Positions 12,095 through 28,291 of a stretch of DNA of 47,733 bases are shown one piece after another (positions within the stretch are counted from its first letter, which is position 1; every line of letters starts with the position of its first letter). A model generated the notes under the pieces. It made no database searches and had not been told where the DNA came from. It was given only the letters and a program-made list of their open reading frames with translations. The DNA is from Limnochordia bacterium (lineage in GTDB: Bacteria > Bacillota > Limnochordia > Darwinibacteriales > DTU012). The stretch covers positions 1 to 47,733 of the forward strand of contig SKJB01000037.1 of assembly GCA_007116145.1 (NCBI GenBank). The letters run 5' to 3'. The translations under genes were made by a program, and so were the position numbers.

Positions 12095-12268
12095 GGTCCT
12101 GAAGCTCACTATGGCATTTTTACAGATCAAATGGTGGTAAGGAGAAACTATTTAACTGAAGAAGAGTTGGTAGAGCTTATTGCTCTAACTGGTATTTTAC
12201 CTGGTCCAAGTAGTACCCAAACTATTGTTGCTATCGGCCATAAAATCGGAGGACCATTTTTGGCATTT
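12095..12268 (+). pseudogene. Chromate transporter (ChrA) fragment running into glgC
   Basis: The frame at 12095-12268 reads [17 protein letters not shown], then [20 protein letters not shown], then [19 protein letters not shown]. This matches residues ~30-90 of a ChrA-type chromate transporter, including the conserved 'LPGP' turn and 'GGP' motif. It lacks the start, most membrane segments and the C-terminus. The frame continues without a stop into glgC, so automated annotation would add ~55 foreign residues to GlgC. It is a gene relic created by deletion or rearrangement. Confidence 0.75.
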
Positions 12269-12295
12269 GATCAATACGAGAATGGGGGTTGTTGT

Positions 12296-13468
12296 ATGGT
12301 ACAGCCAAAAAGAGAATGCATTGCCATGATTCTAGCTGGAGGTCAAGGAAGTCGATTAGAAATATTGACAAGTAAAGTAGCAAAACCTGCTGTACCCTTT
12401 GGAGGGAAATATCGGATAATTGATTTTTCTTTGAGTAATTGTTCTAACTCTGGTATTTATACTGTAGGCGTGTTAGTTCAATATCAACCGCTAGCACTAA
12501 ACTCATATTTAGGGATTGGAGCACCCTGGGGTCTAGACCGAAGAAATGCTGGAGTCACTGTATTGCCGCCTTTTGTGCGCACAGGTGGGGGTGAATGGTA
12601 TAAGGGGACTGCAAATGCTCTTTTTCAAAACATCGAGTTTATTGAAATGTATGATCCCGAATACATCCTTGTTCTCTCAGGTGATCATGTCTATAAGATG
12701 GACTACTCTCTAATGCTAGATTTTCACAAAGAGCAACAAGCTGCGACCACTATAGCATCCATACAGGTTCCTTGGGAAGAAGCTAGTCGGTTTGGAATTC
12801 TAGACTGTAGTGAAGATATGTCGATTGTAGAATTTGCAGAAAAACCACTCGAGCCGAAAAATAACCTGGCTTCGATGGGTGTTTACATATTTAACTGGCA
12901 GGTTCTTAAGCACTATCTCGAGTTAGATGAGGTAGATACAAGTTCTGCTCACGATTTTGGCAGAAACATTATCCCAACCATGCTCAACAATGGTGAGAAA
13001 ATGTCTGCATATCTTTATAATGGTTACTGGAAGGATGTTGGTACTCTGGAAAGCTTGTGGCAAGCAAACATGGATTTACTTGCTGATAATCCACTCTTAA
13101 CACTTGATGATCCTAACTGGCGTATTTACTCCACTAATCCAAGCAAGCCAGCTCAGTATATTGGGAAGAATGCAACCGTTTCAGAGTCTCTAGTCAACGA
13201 AGGGTGCTACATCGAAGGAGATGTAAAACATTCGGTTTTATTTACTGGTGTCACCATTGGCAAGGGTTCGAAGGTTATTGATTCTGTGCTCATGCCAAAT
13301 GTGAGAGTTGGGAATAATGTTGTGATCCACAGATCGATTGTTGGTAGTGAGACGGTAATCGAAGATCATACATACATCGGCGAGAGACATAATACGGAGA
13401 GGTTGACTGTGGTTGGTGGATCGTTAACCATACCAAGTAGGAAAGAATTAATCGGTACTATCGGTTAA
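12296..13468 (+). CDS. glgC: Glucose-1-phosphate adenylyltransferase
   Basis: A 390-residue enzyme that makes ADP-glucose, the glycogen precursor, from glucose-1-phosphate and ATP. The nucleotidyltransferase domain starts with [21 protein letters not shown] and has the [15 protein letters not shown] signature; [12 protein letters not shown] and the sugar-phosphate-binding [11 protein letters not shown] follow. A C-terminal left-handed beta-helix begins near [18 protein letters not shown] 12296 with GGGGG upstream is chosen; the frame extends 55 codons upstream only through a chromate transporter remnant. It lies 13 nt before glgD in a glgC-glgD-glgA operon. Confidence 0.95.
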
Positions 13469-13481
13469 GGAGTGAGTTAGT

Positions 13482-14588
13482 TTGAAAAATGTAATGGGTG
13501 TCATTAATGTGACGGAGTCACCAGATATGTTCCAGGGTTTGATTACGAATCGAACATTAGCGACACTTCCCTTTGGGGGTCGATATTGTTTAATTGATTT
13601 TATCCTATCCAACATGGTGAATTCTAATATCTATAATGTGGGAATATTTGCTAAAAATTACAGTCGTTCTTTGATGGATCATATTGGAACTGCGTCGGAA
13701 TGGGATTTGAATAAGAGACAGGATCGATTGTTCATTCTCACACCACACCAAACAACAACAGACGATATTGGTGATGCAGGTTTGTTGTACCAGCACCTTG
13801 ATTACTTTGAACGTAGTACTCAAGATGTGGTTGTTCTTGCCGATAGTTCCACAGTTAGTAATATTAACTTTACTGACGCAGTTCAATTTCACCTGGATAA
13901 GAAGGCTGATATTACGGTAATGTATCAATCAAGAGATGTCCTAAAAGTGAAACCGAATTGTACGTTAATCGATCTAGATGCAAATCAGAGAGTAACAGGG
14001 ATGGAGATAAACCCCTTCTATCGACGAAGTAAAAATATGTCATTAAAAATCTATATTATTTCTAAAACGTTGCTTATGGAATTAGTTGATCAGTTAGTAT
14101 CTAGGGGAGAAAAGCATATTGTTATGGATGGTATTGTGAAAAATATATCTTCCCTTAAAGTATATGGGTTTGACTATCAGGGTTATTTAGCTTGTGTTTG
14201 CTCGCTCCAGAGTTACTATCACCATAATATGAATCTACTGCAACCAGAAGTCTGGGGAGAGTTATTCTCAAAACCAGGGTTGATTTACACCAAGTTTATT
14301 AATGCGCCTCCTGCAAATTATCGCAATACAGCAAAAGTAAAAAACAGTATAGTTGCTAACGGTTGTGTTATTGAAGGACACATAGAAAATTGCATAATTT
14401 TTCCTGATGTCAAGGTTGAAGCTGGTGCGTATGTGAAAGACAGTCTGATTATGCACCGTAGTGTATTAAAAACAGGGTGCCACTTACAAAATGTCATTCT
14501 CGATAAGGAAGTAACTGTAACTGAGAATAAGCACTTAGTCGGAGATTGGAATTACCCGTTAGTAGTCGAGAAGAAAGTAAGCCTTTAG
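13482..14588 (+). CDS. glgD: GlgD, non-catalytic ADP-glucose pyrophosphorylase-like subunit
   Basis: A 368-residue GlgC paralogue. It keeps the PFGGRYCLIDFILSN segment and a C-terminal beta-helix (KNSIVANGCVIEGHI) but lacks the AGGxGxRL catalytic loop, as is usual for GlgD. In Bacillota GlgD forms a heteromer with GlgC and raises its activity. AAGGAGTG precedes a TTG start at 13482. Relatives usually open 'MKNVMGVINL', which agrees with this start. Translation is probably coupled to glgC. Confidence 0.93.
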   Translation: MKNVMGVINVTESPDMFQGLITNRTLATLPFGGRYCLIDFILSNMVNSNIYNVGIFAKNYSRSLMDHIGTASEWDLNKRQDRLFILTPHQTTTDDIGDAGLLYQHLDYFERSTQDVVVLADSSTVSNINFTDAVQFHLDKKADITVMYQSRDVLKVKPNCTLIDLDANQRVTGMEINPFYRRSKNMSLKIYIISKTLLMELVDQLVSRGEKHIVMDGIVKNISSLKVYGFDYQGYLACVCSLQSYYHHNMNLLQPEVWGELFSKPGLIYTKFINAPPANYRNTAKVKNSIVANGCVIEGHIENCIIFPDVKVEAGAYVKDSLIMHRSVLKTGCHLQNVILDKEVTVTENKHLVGDWNYPLVVEKKVSL

Positions 14589-14631
14589 TGAATATGCGAA
14601 GTCTGTATAGAGAGGGTTAGGGGGTTTAGTG

Positions 14632-16089
14632 ATGAGGGTGCTTTTTGTAGCATCTGAGGGTTTTCCATTTAGTGTGGGGAGTGAGTTAGCTGAATTAATT
14701 AGATTATTACCGCAGGAAATATCCAAAGATGATATTGATGTGCGGGTAATCCTACCAAAATATCGAGAGATATATCAAGATTCTACTAAGCAATTTAAAA
14801 CCGTAACGGACTTTACTCTTAGGATGGGGTGGAGAGAACAATATTGTAGGATTATGGGCACAGACTATCAGGGGATTCATTATTACTTTGTAGACAATGA
14901 GTACTATTTTAACCGAGACGAGCTCTATGGATACGAAGATGATGGAGAACGATTTGCCTTCTTTTGCCGTTCGGTATTAGCAGCCCTACCGCTGATAGAT
15001 TTTTGCCCAGATGTTCTACATCTCCATGATTGGCAGTCTGCTATGACGAGTTTAATCATCCACAAACACTATGCCAATAACAGCTTCTATGCGAACATCA
15101 AGACAGTTTTTACCATTCACAATGTAAAGCATCAGGGGATTTTTCCTAAGCATGTTCTAGGAGATTATCTGGATTTAGGGTGGGATTGCTTTCATATTAA
15201 TGGAATAGAGTTTAATGATCAAGTGAATTATCTTAAGGCTGGCCTAGCATATTCGCACATCATAACAACAGTGAGTCCAGGTTATGCTCGCGACATCCTG
15301 GATCCAATCTATGGAGAATCTATGGATGGAATGCTGGGTTTGCGCAAGGATGATCTCTATGGTATTCTTAACGGGGTTGATTATCAGCAGTACAATTCTA
15401 ACGAAGATTCACTGAACGCCAAGTATTTTAACGCTGATAGCTTAGGGAATAAGCAACATAAGAAAATGAAATTACAGAAGGAGTTAGGTCTGCTAGTTGA
15501 TAGGAATATCCCAGTACTAGCAATGATAACCCCGTTAGTAACGGAAAAGGGATTGGATTTAGTTGGGGCAATTATGAGTGAGCTTCTTAAGGAAGAGATG
15601 CAAGTGGTGATTTTAGGCACTGGAGAGGAACATTATACTAAAGTATTTCAGTTTTGGTCAATGCAAAAACCTCATAAACTTTGCGTAAGGATTGGTGATG
15701 ATAAGACACTAGCTCGACGAATCTATGCTGGTTCTGACATGCTTTTAGTTCCCTCCTTTGTTGAACCATTTGGGCTTTCGCCACTAATTGCACTTCGATA
15801 TGGTACCATACCCATTGTACGAGAAACAGGTGGTCTAAGAGATACCATTAGATCCTATAACGAAGAAACGCAGGAAGGAAATGGTTTTTCTTTTGTTAAT
15901 TATACGGAGCACGATCTGTTATCCACAATCCGCCGCACTTTGTCGTACTATCATAATAAGCTAGTTTGGGATCGTATTCAAAGCAATGCTATAGGATGTG
16001 ACTACTCATGGAGTCAGTGTGCTCATGAATATATTAAATTGTACCAAAAAATCTCTATAGATTCAAATCACCTCTCGGTCTATAGATGA
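14632..16089 (+). CDS. glgA: Glycogen synthase (ADP-glucose type), with altered N-terminal motif
   Basis: A 485-residue GT5/GT-B glycosyltransferase that extends alpha-1,4-glucan from ADP-glucose. Clear features are LHLHDWQSAMTSLI, KTVFTIHNVKHQGIFP, the ILNGVDYQQYN motif and the C-terminal SFVEPFGLSPLIALRYGTIPI carrying the catalytic-region Glu. The usual KxGGL near residue 15, which contacts ADP-glucose, reads SVGSEL here, so the conserved Lys and one Gly are missing. Otherwise length and domains are normal. ATG 14632 is chosen with GGGGG upstream. It lies 43 nt after glgD and ends the operon; no branching enzyme or phosphorylase follows. Confidence 0.93.
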   Translation: MRVLFVASEGFPFSVGSELAELIRLLPQEISKDDIDVRVILPKYREIYQDSTKQFKTVTDFTLRMGWREQYCRIMGTDYQGIHYYFVDNEYYFNRDELYGYEDDGERFAFFCRSVLAALPLIDFCPDVLHLHDWQSAMTSLIIHKHYANNSFYANIKTVFTIHNVKHQGIFPKHVLGDYLDLGWDCFHINGIEFNDQVNYLKAGLAYSHIITTVSPGYARDILDPIYGESMDGMLGLRKDDLYGILNGVDYQQYNSNEDSLNAKYFNADSLGNKQHKKMKLQKELGLLVDRNIPVLAMITPLVTEKGLDLVGAIMSELLKEEMQVVILGTGEEHYTKVFQFWSMQKPHKLCVRIGDDKTLARRIYAGSDMLLVPSFVEPFGLSPLIALRYGTIPIVRETGGLRDTIRSYNEETQEGNGFSFVNYTEHDLLSTIRRTLSYYHNKLVWDRIQSNAIGCDYSWSQCAHEYIKLYQKISIDSNHLSVYR

Positions 16090-16182
16090 AGTTGCTTATT
16101 ACGTTTTAGACCAATCCAAGAAGGAGGGAGGTGGTGCACAAATCGGGTACTGCTATTCAACCAATATTAGGAGGGATTTATT

Positions 16183-16677
16183 ATGTCAAATGACAAGTAC
16201 ACATCAATCGTAAACCTCGATTTCCAGTACGCACATAGGTTTATGAATTGGCCAAGAGAAGCAAAGCACCTACACGGGCACTCAGGTCTTTTAACGATTG
16301 AACTTGAAGACACCGTAGACCCAGTAACTGGATTTGCACACGCTTGTAAAGATGGATTCAAGAAAGCATGGGAAGTTTGTGACCATTTCCATCACGCAAC
16401 ATTGTTTCAAGAAGGCGACCCTCTTCTTGACGCTGTTCTTGCTGTATACGAAAAGGAAGGTATTACTAATGACCCAGAGCATTGTGTTCCTCTTAAAAAG
16501 ATAGACCACGCCCTTGCTTGGTCATACCCAGAATACAGAATAGTTGTGACCAAGAAAGTTTCTACTTGCGAGAATCTTTGCGAACTCTTCTACGAGCTTC
16601 TTAAAGACAAGATGCCGATTAAAAAGATTACTTATCGCTCATCTTCTATGAACGCTGCATCGAAAGAGTATAAGTAA
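16183..16677 (+). CDS. 6-pyruvoyl-tetrahydropterin synthase / QueD-like protein without the usual Cys
   Basis: A 164-residue protein of the PTPS/6-carboxytetrahydropterin synthase family. Zinc-ligand motifs are visible: the first His in QYAHRFMNW and the HLHGHSG pair; a Glu in STCENLCELFYELL matches the conserved C-terminal 'xxEN' position. Canonical QueD has a catalytic Cys three residues before the Leu of LHGH; here that position is Ala (EAKHLHGH). It may be a divergent PTPS paralogue rather than a queuosine enzyme. No other queuosine or folate gene is nearby. AGGAGGG lies 8 nt before ATG 16183. A hairpin separates it from the convergent acylase gene. Confidence 0.8.
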   Translation: MSNDKYTSIVNLDFQYAHRFMNWPREAKHLHGHSGLLTIELEDTVDPVTGFAHACKDGFKKAWEVCDHFHHATLFQEGDPLLDAVLAVYEKEGITNDPEHCVPLKKIDHALAWSYPEYRIVVTKKVSTCENLCELFYELLKDKMPIKKITYRSSSMNAASKEYK

Positions 16678-19217: not shown

Positions 19218-19272
19218 TTTTAACGTTTTTCGTTAAAATATAGTTGACAAACGTAATTTAGTCTGACATACT
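19218..19272 (+). promoter_or_regulatory. Promoter and operator of the XRE-GH3-radical SAM operon
   Basis: TTGACA (19244-19249) and CATACT (19267-19272) are 17 bp apart. A perfect inverted repeat TTTTAACG-N5-CGTTAAAA (19218-19238) sits just upstream of the -35 box. The first gene encodes an XRE regulator, so autoregulation is the simplest reading. The site also lies between this operon and the divergent acylase gene. Confidence 0.6.
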
Positions 19273-19343
19273 AGCGTTGAATACTTTGAGTATAGGCAAA
19301 AGCTTCAACAAGAAAGCGATGAAACACTATAGAGGTGGTAGTG

Positions 19344-19577
19344 ATGGCAATTATTTTGCGGCTTGATCGAGTAATGGCTGATCGGAAAATGTCTCTAAAT
19401 GAATTAGCAGAGCAAGTTGGTGTAGCTAACGTGAATTTGTCTAACATTAAACGAGGGAAGATTAGCGCTATTCGTTTCTCTACACTGAATGCAATATGTG
19501 ATGTACTAAACTGCCAACCCGGAGATATAATCGAGTTCCAGAAGGATACTGCAGGTGATCAAAATGCAGCTAAATAG
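19344..19577 (+). CDS. Small XRE/Cro-type regulator (YozG-like)
   Basis: A 77-residue protein that is a single Cro/C1 helix-turn-helix domain: LNELAEQVGVANVNLSNIKR as recognition region, then CDVLNCQPGDIIEF, typical of the YozG-like class. ATG 19344 is preferred over upstream in-frame GTG codons because AGAGGTGG is then spaced 5-6 nt away. It is the first gene of the operon and its 3' end overlaps the next gene by 14 nt. It probably binds the inverted repeat at 19218. Small size and position suggest a pathway-specific switch. Confidence 0.85.
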   Translation: MAIILRLDRVMADRKMSLNELAEQVGVANVNLSNIKRGKISAIRFSTLNAICDVLNCQPGDIIEFQKDTAGDQNAAK

Positions 19578-20268
19578 CGAGATTATTGCTGTTGATTTGC
19601 TGACGGATCATCTGAAGTCTTCCATGTATAAGTTGATGGTCGAGTTTTATGATCAAACCAATTATGTTGTCTTCTTACATGATCTAAAGGATAAGGATTA
19701 TTGCATATTGCTTTATACGCCTGACAATGAGTTGCGAGGTTTTACCACTGTTAAGCAGGTGAGGTTTACGCTAGATGATACCGACATCTTTGGTGTGTTC
19801 TCGGGCGACACAATAATTCATAGTGATAACTGGGGAAGTTTAGAGCTCTTTAAATCCTTCGCGAAGCTCGTCTTTGAGCTTGGCTCATACCATCAAGATT
19901 TTTATTGGTTTTTAATATCCAAGGGCTACAGAACATATCGAATGCTTCCCGTATTTTTCAAGGAGTTCTACCCTAACTACCAGCACACAACGCCTGCTTA
20001 TGAACAAAGTATTATCAATGGCTTTGGCATGTATAAATACCCAGAAGAATTTGACCTGCTAAGTGGTGTAGTCTGTTATAAGGGGATTAAGGATAAACTA
20101 AAGTTAGGGGTTGCGGATATTACCGACAAGCAGTTACGAGATAAAAACATTGCCTATTTTGTGGATAAGAATCCTGGTTATATTCAGGGTAATGATCTAG
20201 TATGCTTGGCTAGGCTTCATCCTGACAGTTTAAGAGAGCCTGCAAGGAGGTTACTCTTAGGTGGATAG
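19564..20268 (+). CDS. Unknown protein, possible GNAT-like fold, operon gene 2
   Basis: A 234-residue protein without signal or membrane segments. It has no motif I can name with certainty. The order of segments (LRGFTTVKQVRF, FGVFSGDTIIHSDNWG, then a helix and FYWFLISKGYRTYRMLP) resembles the beta-strands, acyl-CoA-binding turn and helices of GNAT acyltransferases. ATG 19564 is chosen, with AGGTGA 5 nt upstream, inside the end of the XRE gene. Its stop overlaps the GH3 start by 8 nt, so translation is coupled. It may transfer an acyl group in the same pathway, but that is inference. Confidence 0.6.
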   Translation: MQLNSEIIAVDLLTDHLKSSMYKLMVEFYDQTNYVVFLHDLKDKDYCILLYTPDNELRGFTTVKQVRFTLDDTDIFGVFSGDTIIHSDNWGSLELFKSFAKLVFELGSYHQDFYWFLISKGYRTYRMLPVFFKEFYPNYQHTTPAYEQSIINGFGMYKYPEEFDLLSGVVCYKGIKDKLKLGVADITDKQLRDKNIAYFVDKNPGYIQGNDLVCLARLHPDSLREPARRLLLGG

Positions 20269-21808
20269 TGTGATAAGTAGCTTTCTGTGTTTTATTGCAA
20301 ATAGCATTTGTTGCAATGGCTATAAACGGGAATACCATAGATTTATAGGTACTACCGATCTTGCAGCCGTACAAGAGCATAAGCTCCTCAGTATCCTATT
20401 AAAGAATAGGGACTGTGTCTATGGCAAGCGCTATAAGTTTTCGCAAATTCAGAGCGTCGCTGATTATCAGGAGCACGTACCGTTAACGTGCTATGAAGAC
20501 TATGTACCCTATATCGATCAGATTTGTCAGGGTATGCCCAAAATTCTAACAGAAGAAGAGGTGTTGATGTTAGAGCCTACAAGCGGATCAACTGCCGCAT
20601 CAAAGTTGATTCCGTACACAAAGAGTCTTCGCGAGGAGTTTCAGAAAGGCATAAAGCCTTGGATCTATGCACTATACACTAACAATCCTAAGCTGCGCTC
20701 TGGTAAAAGCTACTGGTCAATTACACCCATCACTCACCAGGAGAAATTTACGAGTGGCGGTATACGCATTGGCTTTGAGGAAGATAGCCAGTACTTTGGT
20801 AAACTAGAGAGATTTTTGCTTGATCTTGTCTTTGCAGTGCCTGGCAAGCTCGTTAAGCAAGCTGCAATTGATCAGTTTTATCAAGTGACATGTGAAAAAT
20901 TACTACTGTGTAGAAATCTTAGCTTGATCTCCATTTGGAATCCCACATTTTTATTGCTTTTGCTAGACTTTATTACAGCGAACCAGGATGCCTTACTAGC
21001 TAGCATCAGCAGCAAAAGTCCCGAGCAGGCTCTCGAGCTGAAAGCACTTATCCAAAACAGAAACTATCAATTGATCTGGCCGAAATTAGCGATAATTAGT
21101 TGTTGGGGAGATGGTCAGGCAAACCAGTATTTGCCGAAAGTGCAAGCGCTGTTTCCTGATGTGAGCATTGAACCAAAAGGGGTCTTAGCTACGGAAGCCT
21201 TTGTTTCCTTTCCCCTACATGGACTTAATGGTACTGTATTGAGTGGTCATTCTCATTTTTTTGAGTTTCTATCCGTCGATGATGGTCGGATATATCTTGC
21301 TCATCAGCTGCAAACGGGATCGAAGTATGTGGTTATCCTGACTACATCGGGTGGATTGTATCGCTATAATCTTAATGATGTTATCCAGGTTTATGATTTT
21401 TTCGGTTGTTATCCAGTCATAGGATTTATAGGTAAGCAAGATAAGGTGTCCGATCTCTTTGGCGAAAAGCTTCATGAGCTTTTTATCAGTCATATCTTTG
21501 CTGAGCTTAATATAGCAGACTTTTGCATGCTAGCACCGCAGGGTGATCATTATGTAGTTTATACAACATGCGAGGTTAATCGAGAAGAACTAGAAAAGGC
21601 TTTATGCGAAAATTATCATTATGACTACTGTCGTAAGCTCGGTCAATTAAAACCACTGAGATTGTTTCGATTAACTGGAGATCCTCTGCAAGAATATACA
21701 GCAGAGTGTCTTCGCCAAGGGAAGCGGCTTGGAGATATAAAAACCCCAGTTCTATCAGTATATCCAGATTGGGATTTGATTTTTAAAGGAGAATATTTAT
21801 GCGAATAG
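20261..21808 (+). CDS. GH3-family acyl-adenylating / amido synthetase-like enzyme
   Basis: A 515-residue protein of the GH3 ('auxin-responsive promoter') family, ANL-type adenylating enzymes that in plants join carboxylic acids such as auxin or jasmonate to amino acids. Visible features are the N-terminal helix bundle, YxxHVPLTCYEDYVPYI, the phosphate-binding loop LEPTSGSTAASKLIPYT near residue 105, and a second nucleotide motif VLATEAFVSFPL near residue 310. A GLYRYNLNDVIQV segment like that of plant GH3s follows. AAGGAGG precedes the GTG start. Bacterial members are poorly characterised. It lies between a GNAT-like gene and two radical SAM genes, suggesting activation of an acid for amide formation. 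Confidence 0.85.
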   Translation: MDSVISSFLCFIANSICCNGYKREYHRFIGTTDLAAVQEHKLLSILLKNRDCVYGKRYKFSQIQSVADYQEHVPLTCYEDYVPYIDQICQGMPKILTEEEVLMLEPTSGSTAASKLIPYTKSLREEFQKGIKPWIYALYTNNPKLRSGKSYWSITPITHQEKFTSGGIRIGFEEDSQYFGKLERFLLDLVFAVPGKLVKQAAIDQFYQVTCEKLLLCRNLSLISIWNPTFLLLLLDFITANQDALLASISSKSPEQALELKALIQNRNYQLIWPKLAIISCWGDGQANQYLPKVQALFPDVSIEPKGVLATEAFVSFPLHGLNGTVLSGHSHFFEFLSVDDGRIYLAHQLQTGSKYVVILTTSGGLYRYNLNDVIQVYDFFGCYPVIGFIGKQDKVSDLFGEKLHELFISHIFAELNIADFCMLAPQGDHYVVYTTCEVNREELEKALCENYHYDYCRKLGQLKPLRLFRLTGDPLQEYTAECLRQGKRLGDIKTPVLSVYPDWDLIFKGEYLCE

Positions 21809-23166
21809 CCTTACTAGCTCCCGCGGGAGCTATGCATCGCTACAATGGTAGCTTTGGAAAATCACTGCACTATGCACCCCTAACGCTAACTACCTTAGCA
21901 GCGTTAGTGCCCGAGGAGTTAAAGGCAGATATACGAATATACGATGAAACTGCAGGCTCCATCCCTTTGGATCTAGATGCTGATATCGTTTGCATTACTT
22001 GTATTACAGGGACTGCTCCTCGATGCTATGCATTTGCAGACTATTATCGCAGTAAGGGTAAAACAGTTGTCTTAGGCGGGGTACATCCCACAATGCTACC
22101 CGAAGAAGCTAGTCAACATGCAGATGTAGTGATTACTGGTTTTGCCGAGTTTACCTTTCCTCAAATGCTTTATGATTACCATAACCACTGTTTAAAGCAA
22201 CGGTATACCCAAGGTGCCGATTATACCATCGCGGGTCGAGTAAGACCACGGCGCGATCTGCTTCAAAAAAAAAGCTATATTACGCTAAACACAGTAGAAG
22301 CGGTAAGGGGTTGTTCCTTACCGTGCACGTTTTGCGCTTATCCATCGGCCTTTGGTAGAACCATTTATAAACGTCCAGTAGCGGAAGTAATTACTGAGAT
22401 CAAGGAGCTTAACGCACGTGAGGTTCTCTTTCCCGATGTAAATTTAATTGCAGATCAAGCTTATGCTATCGAGTTATTTACTGCAATGATTCCACTGAAA
22501 AAAAACTGGATGGGTTTGGTGACCTCGGCAGTTGGTCTAGAGGATCAGTTAATCAAAGTTCTGGCTAAAAGTGGTTGTCGAGGACTCCTTATCGGATTTG
22601 AGTCAATTAGCCAAGGATCTCAGAAATTAATCAATAAGGGAGTCAATAAAGTGCCTGAGTATCAGTTGCTCATGAAGAAGCTACATGATGTAGGTATTCT
22701 TGTCCAAGGCTGTTTTGCGTTTGGCAGCGATGATGAGGATCAGAGTGTCTTTGATAAAACGGTAGAAATGGTTATCAAAACAAAAATTGACTTGCCGCGA
22801 TATTCTATCTTAACTCCTTTCCCAAAGACAGAGCTTTATCGGCAATTAGCATCAGAAAATAGGATTGTAGAACGAGATTGGGCCTTGTATGATGTGGAAC
22901 ACTGTGTGTTCACTCCTAAACAGATGACGGCTGATCAAGTAGAAGAAGGGTGTGCTTGGGCGTGGGAGGAAACCTATAAAGCGATGTCCATTGTTAAACG
23001 CCTGTCTCCTTTTAACCGACTTCCTTGGCTTGCTCTACCGGTGAATCTAGGATACCGAGGATATGCTGCTAAATTTCGAAGATTTACCAAAGACATAATG
23101 ACTGACAATAGTGATATTCCTGAGGTGAAAAATGAAAATAACCTTCATAGTTCCAGCGATCGGTAA
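21799..23166 (+). CDS. B12-binding-type radical SAM enzyme 1
   Basis: A 455-residue protein. The N-terminal ~150 residues form a cobalamin-binding-like Rossmann domain (VVLGGVHPTMLPEEA, then VVITGFAE). The radical SAM core carries the cluster motif CSLPCTFC (CxxxCxxC) near residue 172, LFPDVNLIADQ and LLIGFESISQGSQ. No DxHxxG cobalamin ligand motif is present, as in many P-methylase/BchE-type enzymes. This class performs C-methylation or radical ring and bond rearrangements. ATG 21799 overlaps the GH3 end by 10 nt and has AAAGGAG 8 nt upstream. It is a paralogue of the next gene. Confidence 0.9.
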   Translation: MRIALLAPAGAMHRYNGSFGKSLHYAPLTLTTLAALVPEELKADIRIYDETAGSIPLDLDADIVCITCITGTAPRCYAFADYYRSKGKTVVLGGVHPTMLPEEASQHADVVITGFAEFTFPQMLYDYHNHCLKQRYTQGADYTIAGRVRPRRDLLQKKSYITLNTVEAVRGCSLPCTFCAYPSAFGRTIYKRPVAEVITEIKELNAREVLFPDVNLIADQAYAIELFTAMIPLKKNWMGLVTSAVGLEDQLIKVLAKSGCRGLLIGFESISQGSQKLINKGVNKVPEYQLLMKKLHDVGILVQGCFAFGSDDEDQSVFDKTVEMVIKTKIDLPRYSILTPFPKTELYRQLASENRIVERDWALYDVEHCVFTPKQMTADQVEEGCAWAWEETYKAMSIVKRLSPFNRLPWLALPVNLGYRGYAAKFRRFTKDIMTDNSDIPEVKNENNLHSSSDR

Positions 23167-24460
23167 AAAACCTGAACAGAAATACATTGGAACCTGGAAA
23201 ATGGAACCTTTAACCTATGGTACATTGTCCGCGCTAACACCAAACGAAATAGAGATTGATTTATATGATGATCGGATAGAGTTAATTGATTATGACATAG
23301 ATACGGACTTAGTGGTGCTTTCTGTTGAGACATATACAGCTAAGCGAGCTTATGCTATTGCTCAGAGATTTCGAGAACGGCAGATACCTGTTGTGCTTGG
23401 TGGTTATCATGTGACTCTTTGTCCCGAGGAAGCAAGTCTTTATAGTGATTGTATTGTGATTGGAAATGCAGAAGGGGTCTGGGAGCAGCTACTAAGTGAT
23501 CTTAAGCTTGGGCAACTACAAAAGGCATACCAGGGTCAGGCTTTTTACCAAAGAAAGTGTGTTGATCGAAGCTTGTATCAGGGCAAGAAATACTTGCCAA
23601 TAACACTTGTAGAGACGGGTCGTGGTTGCTGCCATGATTGCGATTTTTGTGCGATCACCCACTACTATCACACGTATCACAAGCGAGATATTGATCTTAT
23701 TATTGGGGATCTTGCGGCGAGTCCCCACAAACATGTGTTTTTGGTCGATGATAATCTAATGGCAGATAAGGCGAATGCCAAGGCGCTTTTTAAGGCTATG
23801 ATTCCTTTAGGGATCAAATGGGCTGGTCAAGGCACCCTAGCCATGGCAAAAGACCCTGAGCTATTAAACTTAATGAAAAAAAGCGGTTGCGAGCTTATGC
23901 TTATTGGCTTCGAATCGCTCGAGCAGGATAATTTAAAACAGATGAATAAGTCGTTTAATCTTACTTTGGGGGAGCAAAATGAGTTAGTGAAGAGAATTCA
24001 TGATGCCGGTATTGGGATATATGCAACATTCGTGTTTGGTTATGACCATGATACCCTAGCTACAATCGAAAACACCGTTAGGTTTGCTAAAAAGCACAAT
24101 TTTTACACAGCAGCTTTTAATCACTTGTTGCCATTTCCAGGAACTCCCCTGTATACGCGCCTTTTGGAACAAAAGAGATTGATTTATGATAAATGGTGGT
24201 TAGCGGATGATTACACCTATGGTGAGCTTGCTTTTGTTCCGAAACTTATGCCAGCTGAGCGGTTAAGTACAATGTGTCGTCAAGCTCGCAAGGAATTTGC
24301 AAGTTTCCCGACAGTATTAAAAAGAGGCTTACATGCAATGCAGCGTTCGAGCCCGTTAATGTGGGGTGTGTTTTGGGCAATGAACCTCCGATTAGGTGAG
24401 GAAATTGATGAAAAGATGAACGTTCCCCTCGGGAGGAATCTAGATGAGTTCCCTAAATAG
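23132..24460 (+). CDS. B12-binding-type radical SAM enzyme 2
   Basis: A 442-residue paralogue of the preceding protein. The B12-type domain reads VVLGGYHVTLCPEEA and VIGNAEGVW. The [4Fe-4S] motif CHDCDFC with a preceding Cys gives CxxxCxxC near residue 165, and HVFLVDDNLMADK plus MLIGFESLEQDNL follow. LPFPGTPLYTRLLEQ near residue 330 is typical of BchE/HpnP-like enzymes. GAGGTGAAA precedes ATG 23132, which lies 35 nt inside the upstream gene. Two adjacent, divergent B12-type radical SAM enzymes imply two successive radical steps on one molecule. The substrate is unknown. Confidence 0.9.
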   Translation: MKITFIVPAIGKKPEQKYIGTWKMEPLTYGTLSALTPNEIEIDLYDDRIELIDYDIDTDLVVLSVETYTAKRAYAIAQRFRERQIPVVLGGYHVTLCPEEASLYSDCIVIGNAEGVWEQLLSDLKLGQLQKAYQGQAFYQRKCVDRSLYQGKKYLPITLVETGRGCCHDCDFCAITHYYHTYHKRDIDLIIGDLAASPHKHVFLVDDNLMADKANAKALFKAMIPLGIKWAGQGTLAMAKDPELLNLMKKSGCELMLIGFESLEQDNLKQMNKSFNLTLGEQNELVKRIHDAGIGIYATFVFGYDHDTLATIENTVRFAKKHNFYTAAFNHLLPFPGTPLYTRLLEQKRLIYDKWWLADDYTYGELAFVPKLMPAERLSTMCRQARKEFASFPTVLKRGLHAMQRSSPLMWGVFWAMNLRLGEEIDEKMNVPLGRNLDEFPK

Positions 24461-25514
24461 CAGGTATGAATATAGTTTAGCAACGAGTAACGATGGTCCT
24501 GATTTGCTAAGGCTTTATGAGTGCGATGAGTCCTCGGGGAACATATCGGTAATGTATACCCGCAGACCGAATCCCTATGAGTCCCTATTAAGAGAGGGGG
24601 ACAAAGTAATCTTTCCAATAATGCGAGTAAAAGAAACCCAGGAACTATGTGGGGGAGGGTGCTGTGTCATCCGAAAAGCGTATGTAAATGGGCAACGAAG
24701 AATTACTGGGTATCTTACAGGTCTAAAAATTATGCCTAAGTTTCGAAGGCGAGTCCCTTATATCCAGGAGCTCTATCAGGAGTTGTTTGCTTTAACCAAA
24801 GGTGAGGTGGATCTGTTTTATACAACCATTCTTGCCGAAAATGTAGTTTTTCAACGGCTTCTAGAGAAAAAGCGGAAAAATATGCCTGTTTATCAGTTTC
24901 TTCATGACTATACGGTATATTGTTTTTTGCCGCGTTTGCCAAAAACAAGCTTGGACTTGGCTCTTGAGCAGGGAGTTAGTCGTGAAGTAATCGAGTTCTA
25001 TGAGCAGCGATTGCCGCATCTTAACTTATCTCCTTACTCACTTATCGAGTCTAGCAGCTATCCTCGCTTAGACAGTAGCAATATCTATTCGTTAAAAGAT
25101 GCAGCTGGGAGAGTGGTTGCTGCTTGTGGGCTTGTTGATCAAAAGCACTATAAGCAATATATTGTTACCAAGTATTCTGGTGCGCTAAATCTGCTTAGTC
25201 ATCTACCCCTAACATGGATCGGCTATCCTAATTTACCAAAGGTTGGTCAGGTTATAAATTATGCGAGCATTGCTATGTTATGTGTGGACAATGATGACCG
25301 TGATCTAGCCTGTTCTTTAATGAGCAAGGTTTTTGCACAGCATAATAACTATGATTTTTTCATGCTTGGTTTAGTAGGTAATCATCCGCTTAATCAGCTA
25401 TTTGAAACCTTGAAGCATATCAAGTATCCAAGCAAGCTTTATACCGTGCATAATGATCCATCTCACCTTCATCTTGATGAACGGTTGATTCATTTAGAGG
25501 TATCCTTATTATGA
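24444..25514 (+). CDS. GNAT-like acyltransferase, last operon gene
   Basis: A 356-residue protein. The N-terminal half resembles a GNAT domain: YSLATSNDGPDLLRLYE, RITGYLTGLKIMPKFRRR (strand 4 and acetyl-CoA-loop-like basic turn) and a helix. The C-terminal half looks like a second, degenerate copy with AAGRVVAACGLVDQKHYK and SIAMLCVDNDDRDLACSLM. No signal peptide or membrane helix is seen. GGGAGGAATC lies before ATG 24444, which overlaps radical SAM 2 by 17 nt. With the GH3 enzyme it could acylate or amidate a product made by the radical SAM pair. The family is likely, the substrate unknown. Confidence 0.65.
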   Translation: MSSLNSRYEYSLATSNDGPDLLRLYECDESSGNISVMYTRRPNPYESLLREGDKVIFPIMRVKETQELCGGGCCVIRKAYVNGQRRITGYLTGLKIMPKFRRRVPYIQELYQELFALTKGEVDLFYTTILAENVVFQRLLEKKRKNMPVYQFLHDYTVYCFLPRLPKTSLDLALEQGVSREVIEFYEQRLPHLNLSPYSLIESSSYPRLDSSNIYSLKDAAGRVVAACGLVDQKHYKQYIVTKYSGALNLLSHLPLTWIGYPNLPKVGQVINYASIAMLCVDNDDRDLACSLMSKVFAQHNNYDFFMLGLVGNHPLNQLFETLKHIKYPSKLYTVHNDPSHLHLDERLIHLEVSLL

Positions 25515-27370: not shown

Positions 27371-28291
27371 ATGCCCATTCAATATGGTAAATTATTCAAC
27401 TTGCTTAAAGAAAGAAAAATTTCGAAGACTGATTTGCAAAAGGAACTTGGAATATCTTCTGCTACTATAGCAAGATTATCAAAAAATGAAGCGATATCAT
27501 TGAAGGTTATGGAGAATATCTGCAGATTATTACATTGTCAACCTGGGGACATTATGGAATTGGCATATGACTTAGACAAGCCATTGTTGAAGCTCTTTAG
27601 GGAAGAAAAAGAAATGAAGTTGAAGGGTGGGCTGTATCACCAGACTCAGATAAAATTAACATACAATTCTAATAGAATAGAAGGTAGCGTGCTTTCAGAA
27701 GATCAAACGCGATATATTTATGAGACAAATACTATTGCAATGTCTAAGGAAGAAGCAACTCCAGTGGATGATATAATTGAAACAATTAATCATTTTGGGT
27801 GTTTTGATTATATGATTGATATTGCTGATCAAGTATTAACAGAAGAAATGATAAAAGAGTTTCATCGCCTAATTAAATTAAATACTTCTGACAGTAGAAA
27901 AGATTGGTTTAATATAGGTGATTATAAGTTAAGGCCTAACATGGTTGGCGAGAGTAAGACTGTTATGCCATCAAGAGTCAGAGGTGAAATGGCTAGATTG
28001 ATTATAGACTATAATTCTTTGGATGAAGTGAAGTTTGAAGATATTATAGAATTTCATTATCGGTTTGAGTCTATACATCCCTTCCAAGATGGAAATGGAA
28101 GAGTCGGGAGAATCATCATGTTTAAGGAATGCTTAAAGTACGGAATTATTCCCTTCATTATCGACGAGCGACATAAGCAGTTTTATTATCGAGGGCTAAA
28201 AGAGTTTGAGTTAGAAAAAGGATTTCTTATTGACACTTGTTATTCTGCACAAGACGAATACCATAAACTTGTTAGATACTTTATTGAATAA
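27371..28291 (+). CDS. HTH-Fic protein (putative AMP-transferase)
   Basis: A 306-residue protein. Residues 1-65 form an XRE helix-turn-helix of the YozG type (GISSATIARLSKNEAISLKV, CQPGDIMEL). The Fic domain has the complete active-site motif HPFQDGNGRVGR from His236. An inhibitory helix motif SNRIEG lies at residues 101-106 in the N-terminal position, as in class II self-inhibited Fic proteins. AMPylation (or another nucleotidyl transfer) of a protein target is expected. GAGGTGATT precedes ATG 27371. No antitoxin-like partner is adjacent. Codon use is AT-richer than its neighbours. Confidence 0.92.
   Translation: MPIQYGKLFNLLKERKISKTDLQKELGISSATIARLSKNEAISLKVMENICRLLHCQPGDIMELAYDLDKPLLKLFREEKEMKLKGGLYHQTQIKLTYNSNRIEGSVLSEDQTRYIYETNTIAMSKEEATPVDDIIETINHFGCFDYMIDIADQVLTEEMIKEFHRLIKLNTSDSRKDWFNIGDYKLRPNMVGESKTVMPSRVRGEMARLIIDYNSLDEVKFEDIIEFHYRFESIHPFQDGNGRVGRIIMFKECLKYGIIPFIIDERHKQFYYRGLKEFELEKGFLIDTCYSAQDEYHKLVRYFIE

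Follow-up and report, generated by a model that had tools for sequence, protein, structure and literature searches.

A gene cluster joining a GH3-family ligase, GNAT-fold proteins and radical SAM paralogues in a Limnochordia bacterium and unrelated bacteria: a possible route to N-acylated, lipid-like amides

What might be made by an operon that joins a GH3-family ligase to two radical SAM enzymes and two GNAT-fold proteins? The question is raised by a stretch of Limnochordia bacterium DNA (contig SKJB01000037.1 of assembly GCA_007116145.1; the whole stretch analysed, 47,733 nucleotides, is referred to as the window) in which six plus-strand genes at positions 19344-25514 encode, in order, an XRE-type regulator, the single GNAT orf1, GH3, the radical SAM proteins rSAM-A and rSAM-B, and the tandem GNAT orf2 (Table 1). 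With a probability of about one half, this set of genes is a widespread cassette in its smallest version, and its product an N-acylated, lipid-like amide that undergoes radical tailoring. The product, its substrates and every chemical step are deduced from the genes concerned.

A preliminary description of this DNA regarded its proposal of an acyl-amide product as open to refutation if GH3 and the radical SAM genes were not co-located elsewhere; GH3 and both radical SAM genes were found together in unrelated genomes. Loci were picked by GH3 or orf1 only, the radical SAM genes playing no part in the selection of any locus counted. The tally of 21 genomes or records is made up of the window, ten from a GH3-pair scan of public genomes, seven from orf1-profile scans, and one record each of Citrobacter, Burkholderia and Acinetobacter. 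These last three were among four records examined of the seven returned by a plasmid search with GH3, the fourth, from Streptomyces, being excluded from the tally because only GH3 is present there. All five enzyme genes occur in 13 of the 21 (the window, L007, L008+L035, L009, L010, L011+L036, L013, L014, L015, L029, L031, L032 and Citrobacter), L008+L035 and L011+L036 each being taken as contiguous, since in both the cluster breaks off at contig ends within a single genome. Within this set, orf2 of L014 (L014:2885-5249) is interrupted by an opposite-strand gene that appears transposase-like by eye, and that of L029 is spread over two frames. Two pairs are near-copies (L013 and L015, 95.4% identical over 6.3 kilobases (kb); L007 and L008, 91.6% over 5.3 kb), and the independent copies therefore number fewer than 13. 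Four more loci are cut by contig ends (L006, L028, L030 and L012), the first three retaining rSAM-A and a whole or partial rSAM-B, while three (L033, Burkholderia and Acinetobacter) consist of orf1, GH3 and orf2 as a trio, the 17-20 kb fetched having no match to the rSAM-A or rSAM-B profiles. The remaining locus, L034, gave a weak orf1 match only.

In the host class, the GH3 gene was found in 2 of 72 genomes. One is the window's own (2.76 Mb, 96.6% complete), in which it is the single GH3 gene, and the other belongs to a relative of another genus in the same family (G004), where GH3, rSAM-A, rSAM-B and orf2 follow the window order at 56, 80, 73 and 58% identity, respectively; the contig stops inside GH3, and a search of this genome for orf1 gave no match. 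By phylum, and with the centre genomes included, the orf1 profile matched 5 of 398 genomes for the Lachnospiraceae locus, 4 of 345 for the Desulfobacula locus, 2 of 245 for the Marinimicrobia locus and 1 of 345 for the Bacteroidetes locus. The gene order takes two forms. The order orf1-GH3-rSAM-A-rSAM-B-orf2 is seen in the window, L007, L008+L035, L009, L010, L029 and Citrobacter (the cut L006, L028 and L030 agree as far as visible), and rSAM-A-rSAM-B-orf2-orf1-GH3 in L013, L014, L015, L031, L032 and L036+L011; the arrangement is thus one of two mobile blocks, orf1-GH3 and rSAM-A-rSAM-B-orf2, that have been swapped. In uncut copies of the cluster, orf1 adjoins GH3.

Two observations concern the provenance of particular copies. 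L013 and L015 lie on a Marinimicrobia-labelled and a Desulfobacula contig, respectively, and their near-identity may reflect either a wrong bin or recent movement of the cluster. L036 and L011 come from a 0.7-Mb metagenome-assembled genome labelled Kaiserbacteria, which holds the cluster over two contig ends; this is odd for so small a genome, unless it is misbinned.

The amide-forming step is assigned to GH3, which passes the cut-off of 23.6 bits for each of three Pfam models (PF03321, 155.3 bits; GH3_M, PF23571, 59.2 bits; GH3_C, PF23572, 34.8 bits). Its nucleotide-binding motifs, positioned by reference to those given in PMC12493201, are invariant in 11 aligned rows (S108 G109 S110 K115; G307 A310 T311 E312; G364 G365 Y367 R368 Y369 D373). 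The plant acyl acid amido synthetases GH3.15, GH3.12 and JAR1 belong to the same family, and the profile matches GH3.15 at E 4.8e-30, but motif II of the window protein is unlike the plant form, and the protein is bacterial, encoded in an operon and associated with no hormone pathway. The only GH3 model matched, and the nearest named bacterial one, is that of the lyso-ornithine lipid synthetase OlsH (NF052613), with a score of 53.4 bits where the equivalog cut-off is 620. The founding OlsH, from the OlsH/OlsI/OlsG operon of Singulisphaera acidiphila, is likewise a bacterial GH3-family ligase with recognisable nucleotide motifs; it accepts diverse fatty acids and forms an N-acyl amino lipid, N-acyl ornithine (PMC12493201).

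Both orf1 and orf2 fell below every Pfam cut-off, but their predicted structures bear out the earlier description of the two as GNAT-like. The AlphaFold model of orf1 (predicted local distance difference test score, pLDDT, 89.8) aligned with the NatD protein 4ua3 over 154 residues (VIA Z 12.7, root-mean-square deviation (rmsd) 2.9), indicating a GNAT fold; AAC(2')-Ia and many other acetyltransferase families lie within one Z unit of this match, and none is singled out. For orf2 (pLDDT 81.1), the VIA matches to glucosamine acetyltransferases, MAB_4324 and N-myristoyltransferases (NMT) cluster at Z 17.4-19.4, and the alignment with the NMT 4cax (Z 18.8, rmsd 5.0, 298 residues) predicts a tandem GNAT fold, which is also that of the bacterial mycothiol synthase and Eis (named in PMC12219266). 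While bacterial tandem GNATs equal NMT in Z, most NMT rows span residues 1-356 of the model, with the row of the human enzyme reaching its final residue, 496; rows for the remaining tandem GNATs among those listed end at model residues 335-347. In human NMT1, the C-terminal carboxylate is described as the catalytic base (PMC7048800). The C-terminus of orf2 is likewise fixed. Glu stands exactly at position -5 from the end in all 18 homologues with a visible C-terminus, a number that includes near-copies and the C-terminal pieces of L014 and L029, and the last residue is Leu in 15 (Val, Ile and Thr once each), despite whole-protein identities to the window as low as 15%. Such an end fits a catalytic C-terminus, and the predicted structure suggests that orf2 may act in a manner similar to NMT, from which it differs in forming part of a GH3 gene cluster.

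The model Radical_SAM (PF04055) passes its cut-off in both rSAM-A and rSAM-B, and for the B12-binding domain PF02310 (cut-off 32.1 bits) rSAM-A lies over the threshold and rSAM-B just under it; use of cobalamin by both enzymes is predicted from their sequences, and the alteration of a product backbone that the preliminary description ascribed to them is likewise putative. They share domain content and the CX3CX2C motif with HpnJ, BchE and AprD4, which are among their best sequence matches, but are set apart by scores far below equivalog cut-offs and by their occurrence beside GH3 in paralogue sets of two to five. With the HpnJ and BchE models they score 64.0-95.5 bits (best, 95.5 against 577.6 for TIGR03471 and 76.9 against 481.35 for TIGR02026), and GH3 is present, so that the possibility raised earlier of radical SAM proteins from a hopanoid or chlorophyll pathway lacking GH3 does not hold. 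A known pathway for GH3 or the radical SAM proteins was rejected on the same grounds, NCBIfam equivalog scores being far under the cut-off. The solved structures nearest by sequence are AprD4 and 9ccb, neither of them close.

A tree of 45 radical SAM proteins from 15 loci (Citrobacter and L032 left out; rooted at the midpoint, with a program warning of long branches meeting) separates an A side of 18 rows from a B side of 27 with full support. The window's rSAM-A falls in a supported set of nine rows and its rSAM-B in one of eight, both with Bacillota counterparts, and two accessory groups on the B side unite Clostridia rows with Desulfobacula or Marinimicrobia rows. CX3CX2C occurs in every one of the 45 rows. 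The number of radical SAM genes per uncut copy ranges from two, as in the window, to five (L007, L010 and Citrobacter), and differences between the products could therefore reveal the role of each radical step.

The lipid-like character of the product is suggested by neighbouring genes. In L032, a series of genes in the same direction, overlapping or adjacent, comes after the block and encodes a CDP-alcohol phosphatidyltransferase, an alpha/beta-hydrolase-methyltransferase fusion, a phosphatase (of dual-specificity type, its PAP2-like part under the cut-off), a PlsC-type acyltransferase and a CdsA-type cytidylyltransferase. The Citrobacter plasmid carries a PAP2 phosphatase gene and, on the opposite strand, a fatty-acid desaturase gene alongside its radical SAM genes, and in L036 a fatty-acid hydroxylase gene adjoins on the other strand. 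In Burkholderia arboris (L038:4232-11635), the genes in a row are orf1, orf2, an open frame of 354 amino acids that matches no family, and those for a fatty-acid desaturase, GH3 and a Rieske protein; the desaturase and Rieske genes thus flank GH3, the latter overlapping it by 8 nucleotides, and radical SAM genes are absent. Further neighbours are a GNAT-aminotransferase fusion just upstream of the block in L015 (FeeM model under its cut-off) and, as a weak link, genes in L033 for an AMP-binding enzyme, acyl-CoA dehydrogenase and glycosyltransferase at a distance of 3-8 kb.

Taken together, these features allow a pathway to be proposed. The carboxylic acid adenylated by GH3 would most likely be a fatty one, and its coupling partner an amine or amino acid, as ornithine is for OlsH. 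The single GNAT accompanying it, orf1, would transfer or relay an acyl group, and orf2, with its own C-terminal carboxylate as the base in the manner of NMT, would transfer a second acyl group to an amine. After this, rSAM-A and rSAM-B would functionalise carbons of low reactivity in the acyl chain or the head group, a role that the oxygen-using desaturase and Rieske protein would take in the Burkholderia relative. The broader proposal, which is tentative, is of acyl-amide lipids that form a class shared between phyla and need no polyketide or non-ribosomal enzymes: a GH3 ligase of the plant-hormone type and the bacterial NMT-like tandem GNAT would build the amide, and an expandable set of two to five radical SAM paralogues would rewrite the alkyl chain in anaerobes, a desaturase and Rieske protein replacing them in aerobes.

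Several observations weigh against a lipid-like product. The lipid-related neighbours, listed locus by locus, may include chance adjacencies, and no recognised lipid gene lies beside the block in the window or in the fetched Clostridia copies. Other neighbours include a pectinesterase gene in L009 and, directly upstream in L031 (L031:1-5606), genes of amino-acid metabolism that by eye resemble lysine fermentation enzymes. No match to CobS was obtained in the host genome (controls matched 10 of 14), and its one cobalamin riboswitch match, elsewhere in the genome, is sub-threshold (24.6 against 31.5 bits); B12, if used, would thus probably need to be taken up. Among the seven Pfam families listed for 12 orf2 members scanned at E<=10, there was no NMT model, and for this reason orf2 is not filed as an N-myristoyltransferase; its best sequence matches are aminoglycoside and glucosamine-phosphate acetyltransferases. 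AprD4, the best solved match of rSAM-A, is an enzyme of apramycin, acting on a sugar and not on a lipid, and the trio of Acinetobacter baumannii lies among exporter genes (L040:4647-12011, with EmrA-like, EmrB-like, orf1, GH3, TolC-like and orf2 in a row), of which the EmrB-type model alone passes its cut-off.

The AprD4 match and the EmrA/EmrB/TolC-like exporter also favour the main rival, itself rather unlikely, in which the product is a small water-soluble metabolite such as a modified amino acid, amino sugar or antimetabolite. The radical SAM enzymes would remodel a polar core, GH3 would ligate an amino acid, and the GNATs would acetylate for protection or self-resistance, in keeping with weak matches of both radical SAM proteins to PhpK- and ArsL-type models and with the similarity of the N-terminal half of orf2 to aminoglycoside 6'-acetyltransferases. 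Such a metabolite sits poorly with the lipid-enzyme neighbours in L032, Citrobacter, L036 and Burkholderia, and with the GNAT pyrophosphate loops of orf1 and orf2, which appear degenerate in alignments inspected by eye.

A membrane lipid of the ornithine-lipid kind, for which GH3 would make N-acyl ornithine as OlsH does and a GNAT would replace OlsI in adding the second acyl chain, is improbable. OlsH is the sole GH3 model matched, its tolerance of diverse fatty acids would suit such a role, and the L032 hydrolase-methyltransferase fusion recalls OlsI and OlsG. However, the score of GH3 lies far under the OlsH equivalog cut-off, the window operon has no OlsI-type alpha/beta-hydrolase gene, with two GNAT proteins in place of that acyltransferase and radical SAM genes in addition, and the OlsH paper (PMC12493201) nowhere uses the term radical SAM. 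Less probable still is a system modifying a ribosomal peptide or protein, as in the production of ribosomally synthesized and post-translationally modified peptides (RiPPs), with the radical SAM enzymes and GNATs acting on the peptide: the two radical SAM proteins match RiPP radical SAM C-methyltransferase and ApyD models weakly, a SPASM radical SAM gene adjoins L028, and proteins are acylated by NMT itself, but the RiPP model scores are far under the cut-off and the overlapping window genes leave no space between them for a separate precursor gene, no systematic search for small open reading frames having been made.

Each of the enzyme types in the proposed acyl-amide pathway is known, and their combination, the two-block order and the paralogue array are apparently undescribed; in the literature searched (titles and abstract openings), no description of a GH3-GNAT-radical SAM cluster was found. 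The joining of these three classes offers a testable route to a new product family, and if orf2 is indeed NMT-like, a prokaryotic enzyme would carry out fatty N-acylation with its own C-terminal carboxylate.

The layout of the operon was found largely as first described. The overlaps of 8-35 nucleotides are real and number five (14, 8, 10, 35 and 17 nucleotides between successive genes), whereas the genes so joined are six and not five. The perfect inverted repeat placed ahead of them as an operator and a promoter match are also present, the exact repeat TTTTAACG-TTTTT-CGTTAAAA being followed just downstream by the match TTGACA-17-CATACT. This repeat is the sole match within the window at <=3 mismatches, a tolerance at which 24 of 100 window shuffles also contain a match. 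Some perfect 8+8 inverted repeat arises in 55 of 1000 shuffles of the 247-base intergenic stretch, and the operator by itself is therefore modest evidence; promoter-like matches in the region number 19, with 16.7 expected. Searches of the window for Rfam elements gave none at the gathering threshold. The guanine-plus-cytosine content of the cluster (41.5%) is close to that of the window (41.7%), and there is consequently no sign of recent foreign origin.

Table 1. Features of the operon and its upstream region, in window positions (aa, amino acids; bp, base pairs; HTH, helix-turn-helix).
Feature	Position	Strand	Basis
Perfect inverted repeat of 8 bp, candidate operator for the XRE regulator	19218..19238	.	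Exact repeat; shuffle test
Sigma-70-type promoter match TTGACA-17-CATACT, TG before second hexamer	19244..19272	+	Consensus match only
XRE/Cro-type HTH regulator, 77 aa	19344..19577	+	HTH_26 82 bits
orf1, protein with a single GNAT fold, 234 aa, without Pfam/NCBIfam family	19564..20268	+	AlphaFold model, VIA structure match
GH3-family adenylating acyl-amide ligase (predicted), 515 aa	20261..21808	+	Pfam models, nucleotide motifs
rSAM-A, radical SAM enzyme with B12-binding domain, 455 aa, CX3CX2C	21799..23166	+	PF04055 50.2 bits, PF02310 34.6 bits
rSAM-B, a second such radical SAM enzyme, divergent from rSAM-A, 442 aa, CX3CX2C	23132..24460	+	PF04055 45.6 bits, PF02310 31.8 bits
orf2, tandem-GNAT, NMT-like acyltransferase candidate, 356 aa	24444..25514	+	AlphaFold model, VIA matches, C-terminal Glu

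The regulator and a penicillin acylase-type hydrolase had been counted with the enzymes, as the operon's own XRE switch and as a partner that might cut an amide product. Neither has a homologue (tblastn, E<=1e-4) in 19 other loci, several of them short with flanks partly visible and the Citrobacter, Burkholderia and Acinetobacter records not among them; the single XRE-like match (E 7e-4) lies approximately 5 kb from the cluster in L007. The acyl-amide product stands as the best guess, but the inclusion of these two proteins in the system is not supported. The penicillin amidase gene adjoins a region (12131-16677) that by eye comprises a glycogen synthesis set and then a 6-pyruvoyl-tetrahydropterin-synthase-like gene (16183-16677). 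Downstream of the operon, at 27371-28291, a gene encodes what appears by eye to be a Fic-type protein that contains HPFQDGNGRVGR and, at its N-terminus, an XRE-like HTH.

Enterobacteria such as Citrobacter are facultatively anaerobic, and the copy carried by Citrobacter portucalensis 64A:C, isolated from a gull, should express more easily than clusters from uncultured hosts. The whole cluster, with its five radical SAM genes, PAP2 phosphatase and fatty-acid desaturase, lies on an IncFIB/IncFII plasmid predicted to be mobilizable (L039:3418-15513, corresponding to NZ_CP134684.1 51417-63512). Among 72,556 plasmid records, close DNA matches to this copy (megablast) were confined to the record it comes from, and none was found in 5,426 Escherichia coli genomes. 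Other plasmid candidates were rejected. Eight Azospirillum records have a distant orf1 match, and the two examined had no GH3, orf2 or radical SAM match within approximately 9 kb; on the plasmids of Vibrio, Acetoanaerobium and Paraclostridium that were examined (three out of 96 records), the relatives of rSAM-A had no GH3, orf1 or orf2 match nearby; and the GH3 (H5) of the Streptomyces plasmid lies in a polyketide region whose annotation shows no other cluster genes. The Acinetobacter baumannii record, labelled a plasmid, is 4.1 Mb in length and probably a chromosome.

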